From: Nitrospira sp. CG24E | GTDB lineage: Bacteria > Nitrospirota > Nitrospiria > Nitrospirales > Nitrospiraceae | DNA length: 59,591 nucleotides | Direction of reading: 5' to 3' | Assembly (NCBI GenBank): GCA_002869895.2 | Contig: NEWP02000027.1 | Coordinates: 192,656 to 252,246 of the forward strand | Part shown: positions 761 to 53,467 of the stretch, piece after piece | How the letters are laid out: every line of letters starts with the position of its first letter | Numbering within the stretch: position 1 is the first letter of the stretch | Notes under the pieces: generated by a model | Databases searched by the model: none | What the model was told of the DNA's origin: nothing | What the model saw: only the letters and a program-made list of their open reading frames with translations | Made by a program: the position numbers and the translations under genes

Positions 761-2815
761 GTGAGTGACTCGGTGATCATTACGTTTGCGTTGATAGCGG
801 CGGTGACCGGCATTGCCTACGGCCTGTATCTGGCCATGTGGGTATTCAAACTCGACTCCGGGAACCAGAAGATGCAGGACATTGCGAAGGCCATTCAGGA
901 AGGCGCGGCTGCCTATTTGAACCGCCAGTATCGGACCGTCGGTGTTGTCGCAGCAGTGTTATTCGTCGTGTTGTGGGGAGCGGGGGCTTTCTCCGATAAA
1001 TTCGGCCTATTGACCGCGATTGGATTCTTGATCGGCGCCGGTGCTTCGTCGCTGGCCGGGTATGTCGGCATGGTCATCGCCGTGCGGGCCAACGTTCGGA
1101 CGGCCCAGGCTGCCCATAAGGGGATGAATTCGGCGTTGACTGTGGCATTCCGTGGCGGCGCGGTGACGGGGCTCCTGTTGATCGGTTTGGGCTTGCTGGC
1201 TATCACCACATTCTATGCGTTGGCATCGCAATTTGCGGGGCAGGAGCATGCGATCCACGCCTTGTTGAGTCTTGGGTTCGGCGGAAGTTTGATTTCGGTG
1301 TTTGCCCGTGTCGGCGGGGGTATCTATACGAAAGCGGCGGACGTCGGAGCAGACCTTGTCGGAAAAGTCGAGGCAGGGATTCCAGAGGATGACCCTCGTA
1401 ACCCGGCGGTCATTGCGGATAATGTGGGAGACAATGTCGGCGACTGCGCCGGTATGGCCGCAGATCTCTTCGAGACCTACGCAGTGACAACGGTGGCTGC
1501 CATGGTCTTGGCTTTCACGCTGTTTAAGGGAGTCAGCGCTCCGATTCTCTATCCACTCGCTCTCGGAGGCGTGACGATCTTCGCCACGATCATCGGTATT
1601 TTCTTCGTGAGGGTGGGCGAGGGCGGCGAGATCATGACGGCGCTCTACAAGGGCCTGTTTGTAGCGGGTGGCATTGCCGCGGTGGCGTTCTATCCTGTCA
1701 CGAGCACGATCATGGACGGTGTGGGTGGTGTGAGCGGGGTGAGCTACTTCATCGCAGCATTGATCGGCTTGGCTGTGACCCTCGGACTCGTCTTTATCAC
1801 AGACTACTACACGTCCAAGAGCTATAAGCCTGTGAAGGCTATTGCCAAGGCCAGTGAAACGGGTCATGCCACAAACATCATTGCCGGGCTAGCAGTCGGC
1901 ATGGAGGCGACGGCCTGGCCGGTGGTGGTGATCGGGGCAGCAATCCTTTCGAGCTACTGGGTCTGCGGTGGCGCGGCCTCTGGTGGTTTGTACGGTGTCG
2001 CCGTTGCAGCTGTGTCGATGTTGTCGATGGCCGGTATTGTGGTGGCGATCGATGCTTTCGGCCCGATCACGGACAATGCAGGCGGTATTGCGGAGATGGC
2101 CCACCTTGGCAAAGAGGTGCGTGACATTACCGATCCATTGGACGCGGTCGGTAACACGACGAAGGCTGTGACCAAGGGCTATGCGATCGGATCGGCTGGT
2201 CTCGCGGCTGTGGTGCTGTTTGCCGAATATGCGCGTGAAGTGGCAAAGGGGAGCGGGGCCAGCACGTTCGATCTTTCCAATCCTTCCGTCCTGGTCGGAC
2301 TCTTCTTGGGTGGAATGTTGCCCTTTATCTTCGGGGCTCTCTGCATGAAAGCGGTGGGAGAGGCAGCCGGTCTCATTTTGGAAGAGGTGCGGAGGCAGTT
2401 CCGGACGATTAAAGGGATCATGGAGGGGACCGGTAAGCCGGAATACGGAACTTGCGTGGATATCGTGACGCAGGCGGCGATTAAGAAGATGATGGTGTCG
2501 GGTTTGATTCCGGTCATCTCGCCGATTATCGTCGGCGTGATCCTGGGGCCGCAGGCGTTGGGCGGCATGCTCGTCGGCAGTATTGTCACCGGTCTATTCG
2601 TGGCCATCTCGATGACAAGCGGCGGCGGCGCCTGGGACAATGCTAAGAAGTATATTGAAGAGCAGGGCCTGAAGGGGACGGATACTCACAAGGCGGCGGT
2701 GACGGGCGATACGGTCGGTGATCCCTATAAGGATACGGCTGGTCCGGCGATCAATCCGATGATCAAGGTCATCAACATTGTGGCCTTGCTGATTGTGTCG
2801 CTGATCATCAAGTAG
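761..2815 (+). CDS. hppA: Membrane-bound proton-pumping pyrophosphatase (K+-independent type)
   Basis: Integral membrane enzyme that couples hydrolysis of inorganic pyrophosphate to proton export. It has 684 residues, the usual family length, with many hydrophobic helices throughout. The substrate-binding segments are present: a D-x7-K-x-E motif near residue 194, [12 protein letters not shown] near 219, and a third acidic segment ([10 protein letters not shown]) near 649. In GNTTKA (about 464-469) a lysine occupies the position known to distinguish K+-independent enzymes from K+-dependent ones, which have alanine. I therefore infer a K+-independent H+ pump rather than the K+-stimulated form. 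Start is GTG with GGGAGGAG upstream. It is monocistronic and followed by a hairpin element. Confidence 0.96.
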
Positions 2816-2945: not shown

Positions 2946-3080
2946 CTCACCCTTGCGAGATACGCTTCACGTTTCTCGACTCGGCTTGACGGTTAAAAGA
3001 GTCATAGAGTAAGGTGATCATACGGGATCATGCTGGTGGCTGGTCCACGAGGGTTTCCCAGAATCACGGGAGGTGCTCGG

Positions 3081-3278
3081 ATGGAGAAACAAGAACGTAA
3101 ACAGGAACCCAGGCGAGAGCCTCAGGGGAAGGAAGAGGTCAAGGCTAATCCCAAGGTCGTCGAAGCAGGTAAAAAGTTAAAAGAAGACATCGATAAGCTG
3201 GTAGATGAAATCGACGACGTCCTCGAAACGAACGCAGAAGAATTCGTGAAGAATTATGTGCAAAAGGGGGGGGAGTAG
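3081..3278 (+). CDS. Prokaryotic ubiquitin-like protein (Pup/UBact family)
   Basis: A 65-residue, highly charged protein rich in Lys, Glu and Arg and probably disordered. Its C-terminal half is a heptad-like helix ending in Val-Gln-Lys-Gly-Gly-Glu. The Gly-Gly-Glu end is the feature of Pup-like tags, which a PafA-type ligase attaches to target lysines through the terminal glutamate for delivery to a proteasome. The same fold and end are known from Nitrospirota, where the family has been called UBact. ATG 3081 is preferred to an upstream in-frame ATG at 3030 because GGGAGG lies about seven bases ahead of it. Ligase, proteasome ATPase and proteasome genes are not in this window, so the partners must be encoded elsewhere. 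Confidence 0.85.
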   Translation: MEKQERKQEPRREPQGKEEVKANPKVVEAGKKLKEDIDKLVDEIDDVLETNAEEFVKNYVQKGGE

Positions 3279-3283
3279 CCCTA

Positions 3284-3409
3284 GCAGGATGCTGAAAAAG
3301 ACCGCCAGCGGCGTTCTCGCATCGTTCAGGCCCTCAACGTACCCAGAGGGTACGCCTCGGGACCTTCACTCGCTGCGGCCTTGCTGGACGGCCTTTTTGA
3401 GCATCCTGC
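3284..3409. repeat. Intact short-form GCAGGATGCTGAAAAAG element
   Basis: A 126-base element with 17-base terminal inverted repeats (GCAGGATGCTGAAAAAG against CTTTTTGAGCATCCTGC, one mismatch) and an internal palindrome around AACGTACC/GGTACGCC. It follows pup by six bases. Related copies lie at 15306, 17838, 45141, 52810 and 57146. It has no coding capacity and resembles a MITE or REP-type element. Confidence 0.85.
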
Positions 3410-3679: not shown

Positions 3680-5377
3680 ATGAAGTCCAAGCTCTGGGTT
3701 TTTCGCGATATCAATCTGTCCCAGCGGGCTTCGTTGGCTCAGGCTCTTTCGATTTCTCCGGTCACCGCGTCGCTATTTCTGGCTCGTGGTGTGACCACGC
3801 CGGATGAAGCCACGACATGGATGTCGCTGCAGACACCACACGATCCGTTTTTGATCCCCGACATGGAGCAGGCGATCGAACGATTGCACCGTGCCGTGAC
3901 CACTCGGGAGCCGATCTGTTTCTACGGCGATTACGATGTCGATGGGATTACCGCAACCAGTCTCTACATGTCGTTCTTTGGCGGGTTGGGCGCGCAGGTT
4001 CGAGCCTATGTCCCGCATCGTCTGCGCGAGGGCTATGGACTCAATCTAGGAGCCGTTCAGCGCCTGCATGACGAAGGGATCTCCCTCCTGGTGACCTCCG
4101 ATTGCGGTACGACCTCGCATAAAGAAATTGCGTTAGCCGCACAGCTTGGCATGGATGTCGTGGTCACAGACCATCACCAGACAGACGAGGACATGCCGCA
4201 GGCTGTGGCGGTGCTCAACCCCCATCGAGCCGGCGCCCTCTATCCTTTTCGCGGTCTCTGTTCCGCAGCCTTGGCCTATAAGGTAGCGCAGGCCTATCAG
4301 ATGCGCTACGGAGTCGTTGGGGTGCCGTTGGAGTCGTTGCTCGATCTTGTGGCCTTGGCGACGGTCGCGGATGTCGTCCCCTTGCACGATGAGAATCGAA
4401 ACTTTGTGCGAGAAGGACTGGTCCAGCTGTCGTGTGGCTCTCGTTGTGGCGTTCGGGCGTTGAAGCAGGTTGCGGGGGTGACGCGGGACTGCACGGCGGA
4501 GGCGATCGCGTTCAAGCTGGCGCCGCGTATCAATGCCGCCGGACGATTGGATGATGCCATGTTGGGTGTACGGTTGTTGACGACCGACAACCCGGCCGAG
4601 GCGCAGCAGTTGGCAGACAGGCTTGAACAGCTGAATCGGGAGCGGCAGCGCATCGAAGTGGACATCATGGCGGAAGCGCTGGCTTCGCTGAAGGATCGAG
4701 AATTACCGCCTGCGCTCGTACTGGCTTCCCGACATTGGCACCTGGGGGTGGTCGGTATCGTGGCGGCGCGCCTGGTCGATCGGTTTCAGCGCCCGGCCAT
4801 TGTCATGGCTATCAACGAGCAGGGCATGGCCAAGGGTTCGGCCAGGACGACCGGCGGGTTTGACCTCTATCAAGGGTTGGCTGCCTGTCGAGAGATGCTG
4901 GAATCGTTCGGCGGGCATCCGAGCGCCGCAGGGGTGACTATTCGCGAATCTCGGATCGATGAGTTTCGCGCCAGATTTTCCGAGGTGGCGGCAGGATGGA
5001 CCGACGACGGAGCCAAAGTTCCAACGTTAACGGTCGATGCCGAGGTGCGTCTGGATGAAGTGAATTTGCAGTTGATCCAGGAAATCGGTTCGCTGTATCC
5101 CTTCGGCGCAGGTAATCCAGAGCCGACGTTTGCAGTGACCCGTCTCGACGTCATGGATTCGCGCACCGTCGGTGAGAAACATCTGAAGATGACTGTGCGG
5201 CAAGGGACATCGCTGCCGTTCGATAGTATCGGATTCGGCATGAAGTCGTTGCTGGAACGGGGTATTCCATCACGCACTCCGGTCGATCTGGCCTTCACGC
5301 CGGAACTGAATCACTGGAACGGACGAGATCGAATCCAGCTCCGTATTCGCGACGTTCGCCCCAGTGTAGGTGAGTAA
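3680..5377 (+). CDS. recJ: Single-stranded-DNA-specific 5'-3' exonuclease RecJ
   Basis: 565 residues, typical for RecJ. The DHH-family phosphoesterase motifs are visible: DYDVDG near residue 84, SDCGT near 140 and TDHHQ near 163. The DHHA1 motif GGHPSAAG occurs near 411, and a C-terminal OB-fold region follows. The enzyme degrades single-stranded DNA with Mn2+/Mg2+ during RecF-pathway recombination, base excision and mismatch repair. It has its own promoter at 3593 and lies 15 bases ahead of the rel gene, so the two are probably co-transcribed. Confidence 0.95.
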   Translation: MKSKLWVFRDINLSQRASLAQALSISPVTASLFLARGVTTPDEATTWMSLQTPHDPFLIPDMEQAIERLHRAVTTREPICFYGDYDVDGITATSLYMSFFGGLGAQVRAYVPHRLREGYGLNLGAVQRLHDEGISLLVTSDCGTTSHKEIALAAQLGMDVVVTDHHQTDEDMPQAVAVLNPHRAGALYPFRGLCSAALAYKVAQAYQMRYGVVGVPLESLLDLVALATVADVVPLHDENRNFVREGLVQLSCGSRCGVRALKQVAGVTRDCTAEAIAFKLAPRINAAGRLDDAMLGVRLLTTDNPAEAQQLADRLEQLNRERQRIEVDIMAEALASLKDRELPPALVLASRHWHLGVVGIVAARLVDRFQRPAIVMAINEQGMAKGSARTTGGFDLYQGLAACREMLESFGGHPSAAGVTIRESRIDEFRARFSEVAAGWTDDGAKVPTLTVDAEVRLDEVNLQLIQEIGSLYPFGAGNPEPTFAVTRLDVMDSRTVGEKHLKMTVRQGTSLPFDSIGFGMKSLLERGIPSRTPVDLAFTPELNHWNGRDRIQLRIRDVRPSVGE

Positions 5378-5392
5378 ATCAGTGAGTGAACC

Positions 5393-7579
5393 ATGGTATA
5401 TGAAACCGTTACAGGTCTCGATCAGCTGCTGGATCGGATCAAGAGCTATCACGCCGATGCGGACGTCGGTCTCGTTCGCAAGGCCTACGAGTTTTCTGCA
5501 AAAGCTCATGTAGGCCAGCGTCGTCTGTCCGGAGAGCCCTACGTCCAACATCCCATCGCTGTCGCCGGAGTCCTCACCTCGCTCAAAACCGATGTCACCG
5601 CCATCGTCGCAGCGCTGCTGCACGATACCCTTGAAGATACGGTCGCGACGTCTGATGAACTCGAAAGGGAGTTCGGAAAGGATGTCGTGCATCTGGTGGA
5701 TGGGGTCACCAAGATCGGCAAGATCACATTTCGGAGTTATGAGGAAAAGCAGGCAGAGAATTTCCGCAAAATGGTGCTGTCGATGGCGGACGACATTCGA
5801 GTCGTCCTTATTAAGCTTGCCGACCGGCTGCACAACATGCGCACGCTGGAACATCTTCGCCCGGCCAAGCGGCAGGAGATCGCTCAGGAGACGCTGGAGA
5901 TCTACGCGCCGTTGGCGAATCGTCTTGGAATCGGGTGGATCAAAAATGAGTTGGAAGATCTCTGTCTCAAACATCTCAAGCCGGATGTCTACGAAACGTT
6001 ACTTGTCCGTGTAGCGAAACGGGACGAAGACCGGCAGCAGTATATCGATGAAGTCAGGAGGCTGGTGCAGAAGGCTATGGAAGAGAACGGCTTGGTCGGA
6101 CAGGTCTACGGCCGGCCCAAGCATCTCTACGGCATTTACCAAAAGATGAACAAACAGTCGATTACGTTCGAAGAGGTCTATGACCTCACTGCGCTACGGA
6201 TCGTGACCGATACGAAGATGAATTGCTACGCCGTGCTTGGAGTGATTCATTCAGCCTGGCGGCCCGTGCCAGGGCGTTTTAAGGACTACATTGCGATTCC
6301 AAAGTCCAACCTCTATCAATCGCTGCATACGACGGTGGTGGGTCCAAAGGGGGAGCATGTCGAATTCCAAATCCGTACGGAGGATATGCATCGTATTGCC
6401 GAGCACGGAATCGCCGCGCACTGGAAGTATAAAGAGCAGGGCCACGTGGCAGATCGTGACAGTAAGGCCTTCGGTTGGCTGCACCAGTTCGTTGAATGGC
6501 ATGAGGATATGACGGATAACCGGCAGTTCATGGACTCGGTGAAGCTCGACCTCTTTCACGATGTAGTCTATGTGTTTACGCCCAAAGGGATTGTGAAAGA
6601 GTTGCCGCGAGGATCGACACCGGTCGATTTTGCCTTTGCGATTCATACCGAAGTCGGGGACCATTGTGTCGGGGCCAAAGTAGACGGAAAGATTGTGCCG
6701 CTGAAGTATCAACTGGCCAGTGGAGATACGGTTGAAATTCTGACGTCTCCCACGCAGTCGCCACACAAAGACTGGTTAAAATTTGTCCGTACTTCTCGTG
6801 CGAAGACCAAGATCAAACATTGGATCAAGCTTGAAGAACAGAAACGGAGTATCGAAATCGGTCGGCGCTTGCTGGAGTCGGAGTTTCGCCGTCAGGGGAT
6901 GGCGCCGGCCAAGATGTTCAAATCGGCAGAGCTCTTAGAGGCTGCTCGTCAATCCGGGTTCGACAGCACCGACGAATTGGCTGCGGCGGTAGGCTTCGGC
7001 CGCGTGGCAACCTCGCAGGTCATAGGCAAACTCACGGCTCCATTGGCCGGAGCATCGGCGCCGGCTTCGGCTCAAGAGCGTCCCGCCGCGAATAAAGCGA
7101 TAGGCGGGAAGAGCGACAGCACCGGCGTACAGGTCAAGGGGTCTCGAGATCTGTTGATGCAACTGTCACGCTGCTGTCATCCCGTGCCGGGAGACCGGAT
7201 TCTCGGATATATCACTCGTGGCCGTGGGCTGACGATCCATGCTGTCGATTGCCCGAATCTTGAGGCGCTGGACTACGATAAGGAGCGGCTGGTGGAAGTG
7301 GAGTGGGACTCTGCCACACCCAGCACCCACTCGGTCAAGATGTCTATTGTGGCTGTCGATAAGACCGGGGTATTGGCCAACGTGTCTTCCGCGATTGCGG
7401 AATGCCATGCCAACATCAGCCGTGCTGAAATTACGACAAGGGAGGATCAGAAGGCGCTGCTGGATTTTGTCGTGGAAGTTTCAGACACTCGCCATCTGGC
7501 ACAGGTGCTCAAGGCCGTTGAGCGCGTGGATGGGGTGATTACGGCGAGACGGATGAGGGCTTGGCAGGAACGCTCCTAA
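5393..7579 (+). CDS. Bifunctional (p)ppGpp synthetase/hydrolase
   Basis: A 728-residue RelA/SpoT homologue. Visible domains are an HD hydrolase (HDTLEDT near residue 77), a synthetase, a TGS domain (VYVFTPKG near 392) and a C-terminal ACT domain (about 655-725). A Cys-containing stretch precedes ACT. The synthetase loop reads RFKD (near 295), the RxKD form of bifunctional enzymes, rather than the ExDD form of synthetase-only RelA. The intact HD motif supports hydrolase activity too. It makes and destroys the stringent-response alarmone. It sits 15 bases after recJ and ends in an AACCAA-type hairpin. Confidence 0.95.
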   Translation: MVYETVTGLDQLLDRIKSYHADADVGLVRKAYEFSAKAHVGQRRLSGEPYVQHPIAVAGVLTSLKTDVTAIVAALLHDTLEDTVATSDELEREFGKDVVHLVDGVTKIGKITFRSYEEKQAENFRKMVLSMADDIRVVLIKLADRLHNMRTLEHLRPAKRQEIAQETLEIYAPLANRLGIGWIKNELEDLCLKHLKPDVYETLLVRVAKRDEDRQQYIDEVRRLVQKAMEENGLVGQVYGRPKHLYGIYQKMNKQSITFEEVYDLTALRIVTDTKMNCYAVLGVIHSAWRPVPGRFKDYIAIPKSNLYQSLHTTVVGPKGEHVEFQIRTEDMHRIAEHGIAAHWKYKEQGHVADRDSKAFGWLHQFVEWHEDMTDNRQFMDSVKLDLFHDVVYVFTPKGIVKELPRGSTPVDFAFAIHTEVGDHCVGAKVDGKIVPLKYQLASGDTVEILTSPTQSPHKDWLKFVRTSRAKTKIKHWIKLEEQKRSIEIGRRLLESEFRRQGMAPAKMFKSAELLEAARQSGFDSTDELAAAVGFGRVATSQVIGKLTAPLAGASAPASAQERPAANKAIGGKSDSTGVQVKGSRDLLMQLSRCCHPVPGDRILGYITRGRGLTIHAVDCPNLEALDYDKERLVEVEWDSATPSTHSVKMSIVAVDKTGVLANVSSAIAECHANISRAEITTREDQKALLDFVVEVSDTRHLAQVLKAVERVDGVITARRMRAWQERS

Positions 7580-15305: not shown

Positions 15306-15475
15306 GCAGGATGCTGAAAACGTCCGCCAGCGGCGTTCTCGTCTCATCGAAATCCTCAACGTACCCCACCTGGGAAAAGAGCTGTTCTGACAGCCCGGGG
15401 TTGGGCGGGTGAGAATGCTACGCCTCCGGTTTCGACTCGCCTGCGGTCTTGCTGGACGAACTTTTTGAGCATCCT
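15306..15475. repeat. GCAGGATGCTGAAAAAG-family element upstream of pepF
   Basis: Begins TAGCAGGATGCTGAAAACG and ends CTTTTTGAGCATCCTGG, with an interior that differs from the short form (an extra segment around CAGCCCGGGGTTGGG). It separates pepF from the divergent gene at 15696. Confidence 0.8.
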
Positions 15476-16066: not shown

Positions 16067-17299
16067 CTAAGTTTTCTTCTGTGTCGGCAGCACCGCGTAG
16101 TTCCAGTCGCCATGAAACTTGTCCAACTTGAGATTGAGCGAGGCCAGCTCTGCGTCGGTGATCTTGATGCCGGTGGGGTACTTGCCCCGGTCCAGTTCGG
16201 CGCGAATCTTCAAGCCTGCCCGGGTCGTGGTGTTGGCGATCAGATTGACAATGACTTCATGACTCACCAACGGCCGACCGCGCCAGTTCTGGGTGATGTG
16301 ACAGAACATCCGATGCTCGATCTTGTTCCATTTGCTGGTTCCCGGCGGGAAGTGGCACACGTAGACAGGCAGCCCCAGGCGGATCGACAATTCCTGTAAT
16401 GCACCCTTCCACAAACGGCATCGGCTGCCATTGCTTCCACCACCATCGGCGGTGATCAATAACTCCTTGGCATGGGGATAGCGGTTGGCGCCCATTTTGT
16501 GCCACCACCGGCCGATGGCCTGCACCGCGAACTGCGCGGTGTCGTGATCGATGCCCACGCTCACCCAGCCTTCGTTGCGATTCATGTCGAACACGCCGTA
16601 GGGGATGACCTTGCCCAGTTCGGAGTCCGGGAAGTCGTGAATGTCCACGCGCTCGGGTTCGCCGTTGCACTGCCACTCTCGCCCGTTGTTCTTGTACGGG
16701 CCCACGAGTTCCTTCTTCTTCGTGTCCACCGAAATCACCGGCTGCCCGCGTTGCTGGAATCGCGTCACCTTCGCGTTGAGGTACTCGAACTGCGTGTTGC
16801 GATCCGGGTGCGCCGCGCCCTCCAAGGTCTTGCGGTTGCCCTGCAAACTGTAGCCGGCCGCATTCAGCAACTGCGCCACAGCCCTTGCACTGACCGGGTG
16901 CCCCTGCCGCGACAACTCTTGCGCGAGATGGCTCGTGCTCTTGCAAGTCCAGCGCAGGGGCGACTGCGGATCGCCACGTGTCACCGGCGCCACCAGACGA
17001 TCCAACGCGTCGCTCAACTGCGGGTCCGTCTCGGTCAGACGCTTGCGGCCACCGCCCGCCTTGCGCAACCGCGCAGTGACTTCCGCCTCGGGATCGGCCT
17101 CTCGGGTCGCCAACGCGGCCAACCCCTTGCGTATCGTATTCGGCGACATCCCAGTGGCGTCACTCACCGCACTCACGCCACCCCACCCGTAGGCTCGCGC
17201 TTCGGTCGCCGCCCAATGGCGGCGCGCCCGCTCATCCAACACCGATACGAGCGATCGGTACTTCGACTCGATCTGTTTTATCGCGGGCGCAATCGGCAT
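16067..17299 (-). CDS. ISAzo13-family DDE transposase
   Basis: 410 residues, full length for the family. An N-terminal helix-turn-helix region (about residues 30-75) precedes a DDE-type catalytic core. Visible family segments include VISVDTKKKE, GIDHDTAQFA and LITADGGGSNGSR, and HFPPGTSKWNKIEHRMF near the C-terminus carries the catalytic glutamate. It cuts and pastes the element between its inverted repeats. The reading frame is intact, so the copy may still be active. Its codon use is more GC-rich than that of its neighbours, which fits recent arrival. Confidence 0.92.
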   Translation of the reverse strand: MPIAPAIKQIESKYRSLVSVLDERARRHWAATEARAYGWGGVSAVSDATGMSPNTIRKGLAALATREADPEAEVTARLRKAGGGRKRLTETDPQLSDALDRLVAPVTRGDPQSPLRWTCKSTSHLAQELSRQGHPVSARAVAQLLNAAGYSLQGNRKTLEGAAHPDRNTQFEYLNAKVTRFQQRGQPVISVDTKKKELVGPYKNNGREWQCNGEPERVDIHDFPDSELGKVIPYGVFDMNRNEGWVSVGIDHDTAQFAVQAIGRWWHKMGANRYPHAKELLITADGGGSNGSRCRLWKGALQELSIRLGLPVYVCHFPPGTSKWNKIEHRMFCHITQNWRGRPLVSHEVIVNLIANTTTRAGLKIRAELDRGKYPTGIKITDAELASLNLKLDKFHGDWNYAVLPTQKKT

Positions 17300-47144: not shown

Positions 47145-47177
47145 AAATTGAGTTCAAGTCTGCTAGAATTCGCCCCC

Positions 47178-47474
47178 ATGGCCGGCACAAGCACTCCCTT
47201 CGCACCCCCCATCACGACAGAGACCACCAGCACCGACACAGGTGCTAATCTCGACGCACGGGTGCTCGTGTTCAACTGCGAGTGTCATACCTATGACCAG
47301 GTCATTGCGCTCTTTTGCCAGTTCATTCCAGGTATGAGCACCACCAAGGCCTTTGAGCTCGCATGGAAGATCGACCATGACGGGGAAGCCATCGTGTTCG
47401 CGGGGGCACTGGCCCAGGCGGAAGAGATCGCGGAAAAACTGGCGGGAGGAGGGCTACGAGTTGCCGTGCAGTAA
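47178..47474 (+). CDS. ClpS-like adaptor protein
   Basis: 98 residues. The last 75 follow the ClpS fold (RVLVFNCECHTYDQVIALFCQF ... KAFELAWKIDHDGEAIVFAG ... AEEIAEKL). ClpS hands N-degron substrates to ClpAP. The usual Asp-Asp after Asn in the substrate pocket is Cys-Glu here, so specificity may differ. A Thr/Pro-rich N-terminal extension of about 25 residues precedes it. The upstream TTG 47148 is less likely than ATG 47178. No clpA is nearby. Confidence 0.7.
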   Translation: MAGTSTPFAPPITTETTSTDTGANLDARVLVFNCECHTYDQVIALFCQFIPGMSTTKAFELAWKIDHDGEAIVFAGALAQAEEIAEKLAGGGLRVAVQ

Positions 47475-47895: not shown

Positions 47896-48086
47896 GTCCG
47901 TCCTTTCTTTCTGCGCAGGCATACCAAGCCCCGCGCGGCGCAGCATACCCGAAATCTTCAATTTCTTCTAGCGCCTATTTACAAACGCGAGCCAGGAGGT
48001 CGTCGTTTCCGTTACCTTGACAATGGAGAAGTTGCTTTGATAACGTGTTGAAATTGTTTAATCTCTTGGCCATCTTAGGAGCCGTC

Positions 48087-48287
48087 ATGCAGGTCAAAAT
48101 CAATGGCAAGGCAGAAGAGATTTCAGGGGGAACGGTCCTCGATCTGCTCCAAGCCAAAAAGATTGAGCCGCAAATGGTCGCGGTTGAGGTCAACGATACC
48201 ATAGTAGACCGGGATCATCTCGCCACGACCCACCTGAACGACGGCGACCGAGTCGAGTTCCTGTTTTATATGGGAGGTGGTCGGTGA
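48087..48287 (+). CDS. thiS: ThiS-like sulfur-carrier protein with a C-terminal extra Arg
   Basis: 66 residues with a ubiquitin-like beta-grasp fold (MQVKINGKAEEI ... GDRVEFLFYMGGG). ThiS carries sulfur as a C-terminal thiocarboxylate on a final Gly-Gly. Here the protein ends Gly-Gly-Gly-Arg, so the last residue blocks thiocarboxylate formation unless it is removed. A JAMM peptidase at 52943 in the same cluster is a candidate. Its stop overlaps a possible GTG start of cysK. TTAGGAG precedes ATG 48087. Confidence 0.88.
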   Translation: MQVKINGKAEEISGGTVLDLLQAKKIEPQMVAVEVNDTIVDRDHLATTHLNDGDRVEFLFYMGGGR

Positions 48288-48289
48288 CA

Positions 48290-49213
48290 ATGACCCGGCA
48301 CAACGACATCACAGAACTCATTGGACGGACTCCCCTCGTCCGCCTGAACCGGCTGTCCCCTACCGGCGGCGCGACAATCTACGGGAAAGTCGAGTTCTTC
48401 AATCCCGGCGGAAGCGTCAAGGATCGAATCTGTCTCAATATGATCAATGAGGCAGAACGATTGGGGATGTTAAAACCAGGCGGCACGATCGTCGAACCGA
48501 CCAGCGGAAACACCGGAATCGGACTGGCACTAGTGGCCGCAGTTCGTGGCTATAAGCTGATCCTCGTCATGCCGGAGAGTATGAGTATGGAGCGGGCCAG
48601 CCTTTTGTCATCTTATGGGGCACAACTTGTCCTGACACCGGCCTGGGAAGGGATGAAGGGTTCGATTCGCGAGGCGGAAAGCCTCATCGCGCAAAATCCG
48701 TCGTACTTTATGCCGGATCAGTTTTCAAACCCGGCCAACCCGGCCATGCACAAACAAACCACGGCGCGTGAGATCCTCGAAGCACTCGACGGAAAAATCG
48801 ATGCCTTTGTGGCAGCTGTCGGCACGGGCGGAACCATTACCGGATGCGGAGAATTGTTCAAAGAGAAGAATCCTGACGTGAAAGTGATTGCGGTGGAACC
48901 GGCCGGCTCGCCGGTCCTATCAGGTGGAGACCCAGGGCCCCACAAGATTCAGGGCATCGGCGCAGGATTCATTCCGAAAGTGTTGAACCGAACCATTCTC
49001 GATCGTGTCATGACCGTGACCGACGACGAGGCCTATCAAACGGCCAAACAACTCTCGAAGAAGGAAGGCCTCCTGGTGGGGATTTCTGCCGGAGCCAACG
49101 TGTTCGCCGCGCAAAAAGTAGCCCAAGAACTTGGCCCAGGCAAAAACGTAGTCACGATCCTCTGCGACACTGGAGAGCGATACATCAGCATCGAGAAGTA
49201 TTTTAATATTTAG
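48290..49213 (+). CDS. cysK: Cysteine synthase (O-acetylserine sulfhydrylase)
   Basis: About 307 residues. PLP enzyme: Lys in PGGSVKDR binds the cofactor, TSGNTG binds substrate, GTGGT grips the phosphate, and GPHKIQGIGAGFIP is a CysK-type segment. It forms cysteine from O-acetylserine with sulfide, or possibly with a protein thiocarboxylate given its neighbours. A GTG (48284) overlapping the thiS stop or ATG 48290 are both possible starts, so it is coupled to thiS. Confidence 0.94.
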   Translation: MTRHNDITELIGRTPLVRLNRLSPTGGATIYGKVEFFNPGGSVKDRICLNMINEAERLGMLKPGGTIVEPTSGNTGIGLALVAAVRGYKLILVMPESMSMERASLLSSYGAQLVLTPAWEGMKGSIREAESLIAQNPSYFMPDQFSNPANPAMHKQTTAREILEALDGKIDAFVAAVGTGGTITGCGELFKEKNPDVKVIAVEPAGSPVLSGGDPGPHKIQGIGAGFIPKVLNRTILDRVMTVTDDEAYQTAKQLSKKEGLLVGISAGANVFAAQKVAQELGPGKNVVTILCDTGERYISIEKYFNI

Positions 49214-49301
49214 GCGCGAGGCGAGGGGCACGTGGCGAGAGGGGTTGGAGGAAGAGCTAATCTGGTTTACCCCTAGCCCCGTGCCTCTAGCCCCTAGCCT
49301 G
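49211..49301. repeat. TAGCCCC-type word-repeat hairpin
   Basis: Left arm AGGCGCGAGGCGAGGGGCACG and GGCGAGAGGGG, right arm CCCCTAGCCCCGTGCCTC and TAGCCCCTAGCCT. It starts at the cysK stop and occupies the leader of moeB1. Confidence 0.75.
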
Positions 49302-49310
49302 GACGTAGAC

Positions 49311-50123
49311 ATGGAATTTACTGAAGATCAAATTAGTCGCTACAGCCGGCATATTCTTTTGCCTGAGGTCGGGGGCAAGGGGCAGAAGAAGATTGCCAAA
49401 GCCAAAATTCTCCTGGTCGGCGCGGGAGGCCTCGGTTCGCCGGTGGCGCTCTATTTGGCAGCAGCCGGCATCGGCAGGATCGGTCTCATCGATAGCGATG
49501 TGGTGGACCTGACCAATCTTCATCGGCAAATTCTTCACCATACGTCCGATGTGGGACGGCCCAAGGTCCTGTCCGGTAAAGAAAAGATTCAATCGTTGAA
49601 TCCCGACGTGCAAGTCACGATGTACGAAGAGCGGCTGACCGCCGGCAATGCCCTGAAGATCATCAGCGAGTACGATGTCGTCATCGACGGGGTCGATAAC
49701 TTCACGGCCAAGTTTTTGATCAACGATGCCTGTTTCTTTTCCGGGAAACCGTTAGTCCACGGCGGCATTCTCCGCTTCGACGGGCGTGTGACTACCATTG
49801 TGCCGAAACAATCCGCCTGTTATCGTTGCATCTTCAAGACTCCGCCGCCGGCCGGACTGGTCGCCTCCTGCCAAGAGGCGGGCGTGATCGGCGTGTTAGC
49901 CGGCATCATTGGAACGATCCAAGCGACGGAGGCCTTGAAACTCATTCTAGGTATCGGTCATCCTCTCACGAACCGGTTCTTGGATTTCGATGCGCGCAAA
50001 ACGCAGTTCAGAGAAATCAAAGTGAAACGCAATCCCGACTGCGCGCTCTGCGGAGCGCACCCGACGATTACCGAACTGTTCGATGACGGCGACCCCTTTG
50101 CCGGCTGTGCCGTCCGGCCGTAA
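49311..50123 (+). CDS. MoeB/ThiF-type E1-like sulfur-carrier adenylyltransferase (copy 1)
   Basis: 270 residues. Nucleotide-binding loop GAGGLGSPVAL near residue 40, NLHRQILH, and a conserved acidic segment VIDGVDNFTAKFL. Two zinc Cys pairs (CYRC and CALC) are present. It activates the C-terminal glycine of a ThiS/MoaD-like carrier by adenylation before sulfur transfer. A close paralogue lies at 52003; the two may serve different carriers. The start is ATG 49311, just after the hairpin. Confidence 0.92.
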   Translation: MEFTEDQISRYSRHILLPEVGGKGQKKIAKAKILLVGAGGLGSPVALYLAAAGIGRIGLIDSDVVDLTNLHRQILHHTSDVGRPKVLSGKEKIQSLNPDVQVTMYEERLTAGNALKIISEYDVVIDGVDNFTAKFLINDACFFSGKPLVHGGILRFDGRVTTIVPKQSACYRCIFKTPPPAGLVASCQEAGVIGVLAGIIGTIQATEALKLILGIGHPLTNRFLDFDARKTQFREIKVKRNPDCALCGAHPTITELFDDGDPFAGCAVRP

Positions 50124-50149
50124 CTATTGACGAACGAGGTGACATCACC

Positions 50150-51400
50150 ATGGCGACGATGAAAGCGCTAGTCTGCCGCGAATGCGGGAAAGAATATCCG
50201 ACAAAGGCGATCCATGTCTGCGAGATGTGCTTCGGCCCCCTCGAGGTCAAGTACAACTATGAGGAGATCAAGAGAAACATTTCCCGCAAGAAGATCCAGG
50301 ACGGACCGGACAGTATCTGGCGCTATGCCGACCTCCTGCCGGTGCAAGGCCCGACGTATCTCGGCCCCCATGCCGGAATGACGCCGCTGGTGCGCGCCAA
50401 GAATCTCGGCGCTTTCCTGGGATTGGACGAACTCTACATTAAGAACGATACGGTCAACCATCCGACGCTCTCGTTCAAAGATCGGGTCGTAGCAGTTGCC
50501 ATCACCAGAGCCCGCGAATTGGGATTTGAGACCATCGCCTGCGCTTCAACCGGCAATCTGGCCAATTCCGTCGCGGCCCATGCGGCTGCCGCCGGCATGC
50601 GCGCCTATGTCTTCATTCCCGGAGATTTGGAAGCAGCCAAGGTCCTTGGGAACTTAATCTACAAACCGAACGTGGTCGAGGTTGAAGGTAATTACGACGA
50701 CGTCAATCGCCTCTGCAGCGAAATAGCCGGCGAACATGGCTGGGCCTTTGTGAATATCAACATTCGCCCCTACTATGCAGAGGGCTCGAAGACGCTGGCA
50801 TACGAAACGGTTGAGCAGCTCGGCTGGCGCACTCCCGATCAAGTGGTCATCCCGATGGCCTCGGGATCGCTCCTGACAAAGATCTGGAAGGGACTCCACG
50901 AAATGAAAACCGTGGGCCTCATCGATGATGTGAAAACGAAGATCAATGGCGCACAGGCCGAAGGCTGTTCTCCCATTTCCACAGCCTTCAAGTCAGGGCG
51001 TGACTTCTTCAAGCCGGTGAAGCCCAAGACGATCGCGAAGTCCCTGGCTATCGGCAATCCCGCTGACGGGTACTACGCTCTCAAAGCGACCGCCGAGAGC
51101 AAGGGCTCCATGGACATGGTGTCTGACGACGAAGTCGTAGAAGGAATCAAACTGCTCGCGCAGACCGAAGGGATCTTCGCAGAGACGGCTGGCGGTGTGA
51201 CGATCGGCGTACTCCAGAAGCTGGTGAAACAAGGCACGATCAAGAAAAGCGACGTGACGGTCGCCTATATCACCGGCAATGGCTTAAAGACGCAGGAAGC
51301 CGTGATCGATGCGGTCGGTCGGCCCCACCGCATTCAACCGAGCCTCGTCAGCTTTGAACAGACCTTTAAAGTAGGGAAACATGGGGGTGGTGACGCATGA
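50150..51400 (+). CDS. thrC: Threonine-synthase-like PLP enzyme
   Basis: 416 residues. An N-terminal zinc ribbon (CRECGKEYP...CEMC) precedes a PLP fold-type II domain with the cofactor lysine in LSFKDR and a phosphate loop in the GSLLTK region. Threonine synthase converts O-phosphohomoserine to threonine. Because it overlaps a CysO-like carrier gene by four bases (ATGA), a role in sulfur-amino-acid synthesis from O-phosphohomoserine is a possible alternative. The sequence alone does not decide. Confidence 0.88.
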   Translation: MATMKALVCRECGKEYPTKAIHVCEMCFGPLEVKYNYEEIKRNISRKKIQDGPDSIWRYADLLPVQGPTYLGPHAGMTPLVRAKNLGAFLGLDELYIKNDTVNHPTLSFKDRVVAVAITRARELGFETIACASTGNLANSVAAHAAAAGMRAYVFIPGDLEAAKVLGNLIYKPNVVEVEGNYDDVNRLCSEIAGEHGWAFVNINIRPYYAEGSKTLAYETVEQLGWRTPDQVVIPMASGSLLTKIWKGLHEMKTVGLIDDVKTKINGAQAEGCSPISTAFKSGRDFFKPVKPKTIAKSLAIGNPADGYYALKATAESKGSMDMVSDDEVVEGIKLLAQTEGIFAETAGGVTIGVLQKLVKQGTIKKSDVTVAYITGNGLKTQEAVIDAVGRPHRIQPSLVSFEQTFKVGKHGGGDA

Positions 51401-51669
51401 TTAAGGTTCGTATTCCAACCCCGCTCCGTCCCCTGACAAAGGGACAGGGAGAGGTCGAGGCACAGGCCAAGAGTATCGCCGACATGATCGAGACCTTGAA
51501 TGGCTCCTATCCTGGGATCAAGGATCGCCTCTGCGACGAGACAGGGGAGCTTCGCCGGTTCGTGAATATGTACGTCAACGAGGAAGATATTCGATTCCTC
51601 AAGGGCAAAGAGACTTCGCTCAAAGACGGAGACGAAGTCTCCATCGTGCCGGCCATTGCGGGAGGCTGA
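51397..51669 (+). CDS. cysO: CysO/MoaD-like sulfur-carrier protein
   Basis: 90 residues; ubiquitin-like fold ending in the classic Ala-Gly-Gly. Segments RIPTPLRPLTKGQ, LRRFVNMYVNEEDIRF and VSIVPAIAGG closely resemble mycobacterial CysO, which carries sulfur as thiocarboxylate for cysteine synthesis. Unlike the ThiS-like protein at 48087, its end is already Gly-Gly. It overlaps thrC, and a NIL-domain gene follows three bases later. Confidence 0.9.
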   Translation: MIKVRIPTPLRPLTKGQGEVEAQAKSIADMIETLNGSYPGIKDRLCDETGELRRFVNMYVNEEDIRFLKGKETSLKDGDEVSIVPAIAGG

Positions 51670-51671
51670 TT

Positions 51672-51911
51672 ATGCCGAACATGAAATTTCACATTCGATT
51701 CCCGGAGGACAAGATCAAAGAGCCGATCATTTACCAGATCGGTCACGAATTCAAAATCGTCACGAATGTCCGTCGCGCCGATGTGCGTGAAACCACCGGG
51801 TGGATGGATCTCGAGCTTACCGGGGACAGCACGGAAATCGAACGGGCCGTCGCCGGCCTTCGTAAGAAGGGCGTCATTGTCGACCCGATCGAATTGAATG
51901 TCGTGGAATAA
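51672..51911 (+). CDS. Stand-alone NIL-domain protein
   Basis: 79 residues consisting only of a NIL domain (IRFPEDKIKEPIIYQIGHEF ... RADVRETTGWMDLELTG). NIL domains are found on methionine transporters and in proteins of sulfide-based homocysteine synthesis; their ligand is uncertain. Its tight coupling to cysO suggests a sulfur or methionine-related sensor or partner. Confidence 0.85.
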   Translation: MPNMKFHIRFPEDKIKEPIIYQIGHEFKIVTNVRRADVRETTGWMDLELTGDSTEIERAVAGLRKKGVIVDPIELNVVE

Positions 51912-51990
51912 GGATAGGCAAGAGGGGCGAGGCAAGGGGCTAGGGGCAATGTTTCTCAAACCTCTCGCCACTAGCCTCTAGCCATAAGCC
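51912..51990. repeat. TAGCCCC-type word-repeat hairpin
   Basis: Left arm GGATAGGCAAGAGGGGCGAGG and GGGGCTAGGGG, right arm CCTCTCGCCACTAGCCTC and TAGCCATAAGCC. It sits between the NIL gene and moeB2. Confidence 0.75.
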
Positions 51991-52002
51991 GAAAGCGAAG
52001 CG

Positions 52003-52806
52003 ATGGAACTCACTGAACCGCAGATTCAACGATACAGCCGCCAGATTATTCTGAGCGAGGTAGGCGGCAAGGGCCAGATAAAGCTGAGCAAGGCAAAGGT
52101 CTTGCTCATCGGCGCCGGTGGGCTCGGCTCACCTGCCGGACTCTATCTCGCCGCCGCCGGTGTCGGCACCATCGGCCTAGTCGATGGCGATGTTGTCGAT
52201 CTCTCGAATTTGCAGCGGCAAATTTTACACTCCACCGCCACGGTCGGCATGCCGAAAGTGGAGTCAGGCAGGAAGACCCTCACGGCCATCAATCCGGAGA
52301 TCACGGTCAATGCCTATCATCAGCTCGTGGATGCAGACAATATCCTTCCGCTCTTCAAAGAATACGACATGGTGCTGGACGGATCAGACAACTTTTCGAC
52401 GCGTTTTCTCGTGAACGACGCCTGTTTCTTTGCCAAGAAGACGCTCATTTCCGCCAGCATGTTCCGCTTCGAGGGTCAGCTCACGACAATCAAGCCCCAT
52501 GCAGGCTATCCCTGCTACCGCTGCCTCTACCCAGAGCCACCGCCGGCGGGACTGGTTCCCAATTGCCAAGAAGCCGGCGTCTTAGGAGCCCTCGCTGGAA
52601 CCATGGGCATTCTTCAAGCATCGGAAGCGATCAAAGAAATACTCGGGATCGGCGAGACCATGGCCGACCGCCTGCTCATTTACGACGCCCTGGAGATGAA
52701 ATTCAGAAAAGTCCGACGCCCCAAAGACCCGGCCTGCCGCCTCTGCGGACCAGCACCGACGATCACTAACTTGAACAGTGACTATACCGTCACCTGCACC
52801 ATTTAG
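52003..52806 (+). CDS. MoeB/ThiF-type E1-like adenylyltransferase (copy 2)
   Basis: 267 residues, similar to the copy at 49311 (GAGGLGSPAGL, NLQRQILH, VLDGSDNFSTRFL, and Cys pairs CYRC and CRLC). It should adenylate a carrier protein. Keeping two E1-like genes in one cluster, next to two carriers, suggests division of labour. It is followed by a repeat element whose edge is close to its TAG stop. Confidence 0.92.
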   Translation: MELTEPQIQRYSRQIILSEVGGKGQIKLSKAKVLLIGAGGLGSPAGLYLAAAGVGTIGLVDGDVVDLSNLQRQILHSTATVGMPKVESGRKTLTAINPEITVNAYHQLVDADNILPLFKEYDMVLDGSDNFSTRFLVNDACFFAKKTLISASMFRFEGQLTTIKPHAGYPCYRCLYPEPPPAGLVPNCQEAGVLGALAGTMGILQASEAIKEILGIGETMADRLLIYDALEMKFRKVRRPKDPACRLCGPAPTITNLNSDYTVTCTI

Positions 52807-52809
52807 CCC

Positions 52810-52935
52810 ACAGGAGACTGAAAACGCCTGCCAGCTGCGTTCTCGCATCGTTCAGACCCTCAACGTACCTCCAGAGAGTACGCCTCGGGCCTTCACTCGC
52901 TGCGGCCTTGCTGAACAGGCATTTTGAGTCTCCTG
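52810..52935. repeat. Short-form GCAGGATGCTGAAAAAG-family element
   Basis: Begins CACAGGAGACTGAAAACG and ends ATTTTGAGTCTCCTGCC, with the palindrome AACGTACC/GTACGCC. It ends about seven bases before the ATG of the JAMM gene, leaving no room for a normal ribosome-binding site. Confidence 0.75.
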
Positions 52936-52942
52936 CCTAACA

Positions 52943-53467
52943 ATGGAATTAAATAGAGTGTCGGACCTCGTCATTCCCCAACAGATTCTCGATGACATAG
53001 TGGCCCACGCCAGGGAGCTCGATCCCTACGAATGTTGTGGACTCCTGGCCGGAAGCAACGGAACCGTTACGCATGTCTATCGAATCACCAATATCGTGGC
53101 GCTCGAAGGAGCCGAAAAATTGTCTTCTTTCGATCCGGCAAAGGCCGCGCATCTGGAACGCCTCTCGCCAGCCGAACGTGCCGAAATCGCCTTCGTAATG
53201 GATATGCAGGACTTTTCCGCTGCGAAGAAGGACATTCGGAACAAAGGGCTCGATCTGCAAGTGGTCTATCACTCCCATCCTCACGACCCGGCGCGCCCCT
53301 CCACCACCGATATCAAGATTGCCACCGACTACGAAGAGATCTGGCCCAAGATCAACCTGCCCATCCCAGCCTATCTGCTCATCTCCCTCATGGATAAGTC
53401 GACGCCCGACATCCGCCTATACAAAATCAAGGGTGGGGCAGTCACGCCAGCGCACATCTCAACTTAA
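52943..53467 (+). CDS. mec: JAMM/MPN+ metallopeptidase (Mec-like)
   Basis: 174 residues. The zinc motif HSHPHDPARPSTTDI fits H-x-H-x(n)-S-x2-D of JAMM peptidases. In Mycobacterium, Mec releases cysteine from CysO; in Wolinella a related peptidase trims a C-terminal residue after Gly-Gly of a sulfur carrier. Both roles fit this cluster, which contains a CysO-like protein and a ThiS-like protein ending in Arg. ATG 52943 has a repeat element directly upstream; a GTG five codons later is possible. Confidence 0.88.
   Translation: MELNRVSDLVIPQQILDDIVAHARELDPYECCGLLAGSNGTVTHVYRITNIVALEGAEKLSSFDPAKAAHLERLSPAERAEIAFVMDMQDFSAAKKDIRNKGLDLQVVYHSHPHDPARPSTTDIKIATDYEEIWPKINLPIPAYLLISLMDKSTPDIRLYKIKGGAVTPAHIST

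Follow-up and report, generated by a model that had tools for sequence, protein, structure and literature searches.

The window analysed here, a 59,591-nucleotide stretch of the draft genome of Nitrospira sp. CG24E (G000:C20:192656-252246), carries a gene for the prokaryotic tag Pup that stands apart from the ligase and proteasome genes of its pathway, a position shared by every locus compared from the order Nitrospirales. We consider it very probable that canonical pupylation is run here in trans, in parallel with a second system built on the tag UBact, and that pup moved away from its partner genes in the ancestor of the order. On the activities predicted for these proteins from their sequences, PafA would join the side chain of Pup's terminal Glu to lysines, Dop would remove Pup from conjugates, and the ATPase Mpa would thread the conjugates into the PrcBA proteasome. 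That ancestral move would have taken pup out of a thiG-thiE-Mpa-Dop-Pup-PrcB-PrcA-PafA cluster to a site between hppA and recJ, and tag and machinery would now act in trans. A separate UBact cluster, supplying a tag, a ligase, a Dop-like enzyme, an ATPase and proteasome subunits of its own, would run alongside in this and most other genomes of the order. An apparent deletion of ~5.3 kb in the present assembly would leave Pup, PrcA and PafA of the Pup pathway.

Identity and C-terminal residue of the window protein

The open reading frame at 3081..3278 on the forward strand encodes, as a sequence-only reading of the window had described and as we confirm, a 65-residue protein that lies between hppA and recJ and ends in Gly-Gly-Glu (...YVQKGGE). 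It matches the Pup family PF05639 with 77.7 bits (E 1.3e-21; Pfam cut-off 27 bits) and the NCBIfam model TIGR03687 with 63.2 bits (cut-off 41.45). The UBact models PF20513 and NF033388 did not match it in Pfam or NCBIfam even at E values as high as 1, and an assignment to UBact was dropped on this ground. Of the earlier label "Pup/UBact-like", the Pup half thus stands on these two models and the UBact half falls, UBact being encoded by a separate gene on contig C14. The accessible text of Iyer 2008 (PMC2588565) characterizes Pup by a length of 50-90 residues and a C-terminal G-[E/Q]; the window protein, with 65 residues and a GGE end, fits both, and at the level of sequence its identity as a true Pup is confirmed. 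A ribosome-binding site, GGGAGGTG, lies at 3068..3075 on the forward strand, 5 bases before the ATG, and is kept letter for letter in all six g1 loci compared (the window, L112, L113, L115, L037 and L041). Because of this conservation the start at 3081 is favoured over an upstream ATG at 3030, from which an 82-residue product would be made. The protein is identical in Nitrospira sp. CG24C (L172), and comparison of pup with that of G103, a genome of the same genus, gave a dN of 0 at a dS of 0.66 (dN/dS 0).

Since the tag ends in Glu, deamidation should be unneeded, as had been proposed from the sequence; the accompanying contrast with Gln-ending Pups was overstated, since 41 of 50 Pups from the order (49 loci and the window) end in GGE, eight in GGQ and one in GRG. 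Elsewhere in the phylum, 15 of 20 loci encode GGE and five GGQ. Among named loci, the 27 Nitrospira-like ones comprise 24 with GGE, two with GGQ and one cut by a contig end, and the 53 outside that group comprise 31 with GGE and 22 with GGQ. A Glu end is therefore the ordinary and commonest form of Pup. According to the accessible part of Barandun 2012 (PMC3511204), Dop can be retained alongside a Glu-ending tag, where it serves to take the tag off again. The single GRG end belongs to an eroded Pup in L136 (G012:C79), from a genome with one weak ligase match only (8.7e-5); this Pup may be a relic that illustrates what loss of the pathway can look like.

Displacement of pup throughout the order

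Upstream of pup lies a gene at 761..2815 that we take to be hppA, encoding a membrane pyrophosphatase, and downstream lie genes at 3680..5377 and 5393..7579, presumably recJ and a relA/spoT-like gene, all on the forward strand; the sequence-only reading had likewise named hppA and recJ. All 49 order loci examined (29 from the search and 20 from three further families) have recJ, relA or both close to pup, 39 show a homologue of hppA on the same side as in the window, and the relA/spoT-like gene after recJ forms part of this conserved landing site. The same hppA/recJ/relA setting recurs in all 27 named Nitrospira-like loci. Inspection by eye of the window's open reading frames revealed no ligase or proteasome gene, and whole-genome searches placed all of them outside it; within flanks of only about 1-3 kb, pup has no Dop, PrcB, Mpa or PafA gene as a neighbour in any of the 49 order loci, although a place next to PafA or Dop is usual, if not strictly defining, for Pup genes. 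The separation first noted for this one locus is thus common to the whole order. Outside the order, 19 of 20 loci of the phylum read Dop-Pup-PrcB, including those of G239, G246 and G251 from the same class, the sole exception being L161, where Pup adjoins PafA. Eight shorter loci (L137-L144), from genomes mostly already in the 20-locus set, were left out of this count; seven of them read Dop-Pup-PrcB, and the eighth is that Pup-PafA exception again. Among named loci, Dop adjoins pup in 50 of 53 outside the Nitrospira-like group versus 0 of 27 within it, and the three without it are two NC10/Methylomirabilota contigs and one Rokubacteria contig. Because all 49 order loci are displaced and 19 of the 20 other phylum loci are Dop-Pup-PrcB, the pattern looks like a single ancestral move of pup at the base of the order.

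In 41 of the 146 order genomes, those typed with both places on one contig, the distance from pup to the best-scoring ligase-family gene, confirmed as a Pup-type Dop in G034, G032, G103 and G141 only, ranges from 40.7 kb to 1.42 Mb with a median of 49.7 kb. This physical unlinking makes it plausible that pup and its machinery are regulated separately; a promoter and terminator scan returned nothing above chance. In their accessible portions, Iyer 2008 (PMC2588565) describes pup as "invariably" adjacent to a PafA gene and Barandun 2012 (PMC3511204) calls the gene order "rigidly conserved", and the Nitrospira-type order is an exception to both rules. Our literature search, with most subscription journals outside its reach, found no report of an order-wide displacement of pup. 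Loci L201, L202 and L208, from NC10/Methylomirabilota and Rokubacteria, also carry Pup with neither Dop nor PrcB nearby and are possibly other displacements of the gene.

Several further features were observed in the window and at its edge. Directly after pup, at 3284-3409, lies a palindromic repeat (GGCGGTCTTTTTCAGCATCCTGC and its inverse) with copies at 15306, 45334 and 57248; it has five window matches at up to three mismatches, versus 0.00 expected, and resembles a mobile or REP-type element of small size. A ubiquitin-related cluster at 48045-53467 encodes a ThiS-type beta-grasp protein, a PALP enzyme, two ThiF (E1-like) proteins and a JAB peptidase, and resembles, as we presume, clusters for sulfur-carrier cysteine synthesis. 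Just before it, at 47148-47474, is the gene for a ClpS-family adaptor of protein degradation, and an ISAzo13-type transposase (PF07592) is encoded at 16067-17299. A 100-base run of N, a scaffold gap, occupies G000:C20:252247-252346, directly past the last base of the window.

Pup-type and UBact machinery

The proposal that the tag is kept apart from its machinery survives a whole-genome search, which recovered ligase and proteasome genes in G000: three of the ligase family, three of the proteasome family and one for an Mpa-like ATPase. Proteasome-family counts were not used across genomes, the search that supplied them having given two for G000 where a direct search gave three. Pup-type prcA and pafA sit 67 kb downstream of pup on the same contig, with PrcA at G000:C20:263122-263808 (equivalog match of 302.9 bits, cut-off 139.05) and PafA at G000:C20:263964-265358 (TIGR03686, 564.9 bits, cut-off 551.3). 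This PafA retains the GxExE and YxD...HPEY..PEC blocks, whose residues we take to have active-site roles. Whole-genome searches found no Pup-type Dop or Mpa in the assembly, and PrcB only as its last codons; all three are present in the three relatives read. They are partners in the pathway and do not bear on whether the tag itself is a Pup. Other TIGR03689 matches in G000 are weak, and an ATPase fragment on contig C75, considered as the missing Mpa, was dropped because by its motifs it reads as FtsH. A GhExE motif is described in the accessible text of Iyer 2008 (PMC2588565).

Contig C14 carries a full UBact cluster in the order Mpa-Dop-UBact-PrcB-PrcA-PafA at about 185313-192072. Its tag ends in RTGE and scores 81.8 bits against NF033388 (versus 35) and 75.9 against PF20513 (versus 27.8); its ATPase reaches 429.9 bits with TIGR03689, below the cut-off of 504.75, and its Dop-, PrcB-, PrcA- and PafA-like proteins likewise score below the Pup-type cut-offs. 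UBact is reportedly the subject of work by Lehmann from 2017. Of 146 order genomes, 139 have Pup and 105 have UBact; 102 carry the two together, three UBact alone, 37 Pup alone and four neither. Genomes with both tags exist beyond the order too, G239, G246 and G154 among them. At least three ligase-family genes are present in 101 of the 105 genomes with UBact and at most two in 36 of the 41 without it, counts uncorrected for kinship. As ligase-family gene numbers track UBact in this way, each tag appears to be inherited together with an enzyme pair of its own. Among 51 ligase-family proteins, a tree separates the UBact-side pair from the Pup-side pair with a support of 99/96, on long branches. 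Separate duplications as the origin of the two Dop/PafA pairs were dropped on this split, with a clade of Dop and its UBact-side counterpart uDop not rejected by the AU test (p 0.073). Two further members of the phylum, G205 (C16, C135) and G232 (C87, C89), have two Pup matches each and may be strain mixtures.

The thiG-prcB junction and comparison with known systems

In the relatives G034, G032 and G103, the Pup-type cluster reads ctp, a short reverse gene, thiS, thiG, thiE, Mpa, Dop, prcB, prcA, pafA and an M23 peptidase gene, the names outside the pathway being ones we presume and the prcA and pafA part in G103 being taken from a separate reading. In G000, thiG is joined in frame to the last ~22 codons of prcB at G000:C20:262499-263119 (L009:10500-11120), and some 5277 bases present in G103 are missing, with them thiE, Mpa, Dop and the bulk of prcB. 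A move of thiE elsewhere was considered and dropped, the gene on contig C24 being only 34% identical to the cluster thiE. The remaining genes are conserved: dN/dS versus G103 is 0.057 for prcA and 0.026 for pafA, and 0.038-0.089 for the neighbours hppA, recJ, relA, ctpA and M23. Thus pup, prcA and pafA are under strong purifying selection and evolve as slowly as their neighbours, from which it follows that the loss is very recent, that it is an artefact, or that the remaining genes still work.

That a deletion occurred in the strain is suggested by the assembly, a 3.45-Mb draft in 99 contigs with scaffold gaps, listed as 98.24% complete; in a draft of this kind the deletion may be an artefact. 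We give a little under an even chance to the reading that it is an assembly artefact or a minority variant and that the living strain, like its relatives, still has Mpa, Dop and PrcB. Four ligase-family genes are present in nine of ten other genomes sampled from the genus, the low dN/dS values of pup, prcA and pafA look as if the pathway were intact, and the sole ThiG match found in the genome is cut short by the junction, at what would be a high cost to a living strain. Moreover, the exact 40-base junction pattern occurs in no other genome of genome_contigs, a collection that may omit G000 itself. Against an artefact, however, the junction is gap-free, without a run of N; the two breakpoints share no repeat longer than a few bases in G103 or G034; the fusion keeps the frame; and canonical Dop, Mpa and PrcB occur nowhere else in the assembly.

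If the deletion is real, ligation of Pup would still be possible, given its Glu end and the intact ligase motifs, in a strain without a Pup-specific remover and protease. That the strain pupylates without its own Dop, Mpa and PrcB, with Pup serving as a lasting modifier or being read by the UBact machinery, we regard as improbable; if true, it would link two tag systems in one cell. Less probable again is that the UBact-side Dop-like enzyme, ATPase and PrcB handle Pup conjugates here, perhaps through canonical PrcA paired with UBact-side PrcB. The assembly retains no other Dop, ATPase or beta subunit of the family, but the Dops (uDop versus Dop, 42-43% identical) and the ATPases (36-37%) of the two systems are far apart, the ligase pairs fall on separate sides of the 99/96 branch, and such a takeover hinges on a real deletion. 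Decay of the window gene as a remnant of a pathway now lost is very unlikely: three partner genes are missing from the assembly, yet the protein is identical to that of G103 despite a dS of 0.66, and a real relic looks different, as the eroded, GRG-ending Pup of G012 illustrates. Misassembly or bin contamination as the source of the lone position is refuted by its recurrence in all 49 order loci and all 27 named Nitrospira-like loci, and we give it practically no weight. Canonical pupylation in trans, alongside UBact, is the reading that we prefer.

Two parallel tag-and-proteasome systems in 102 of 146 order genomes offer a natural test of tags sharing one cell, in which it can be asked whether two degradation tags divide the proteome, engage in cross-talk or answer different signals. 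With the Actinobacterial Pup-proteasome system (PafA, Dop, Mpa/ARC and PrcBA), the system described here shares the tag family, the GG[EQ] end and PafA and PrcA equivalogs, and the relatives of G000 have the same order Mpa-Dop-PrcB-PrcA-PafA. In contrast to that system, pup lies apart, next to hppA and recJ, UBact is present as well in most of the order, and the G000 assembly has Mpa, Dop and most of PrcB deleted. The Pup clusters of the rest of the phylum encode homologous proteins, arranged alike and in many cases preceded by thiG-thiE, but there pup remains between Dop and PrcB (19 of 20 loci). The UBact system (PF20513, NF033388), complete on C14 of G000, differs in its RTGE tag and its own diverged enzymes. 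To the sequence-only reading, the analysis adds the order-wide relocation of pup, the common co-occurrence of two tags, and the possibility that this strain has naturally lost Dop, Mpa and PrcB.
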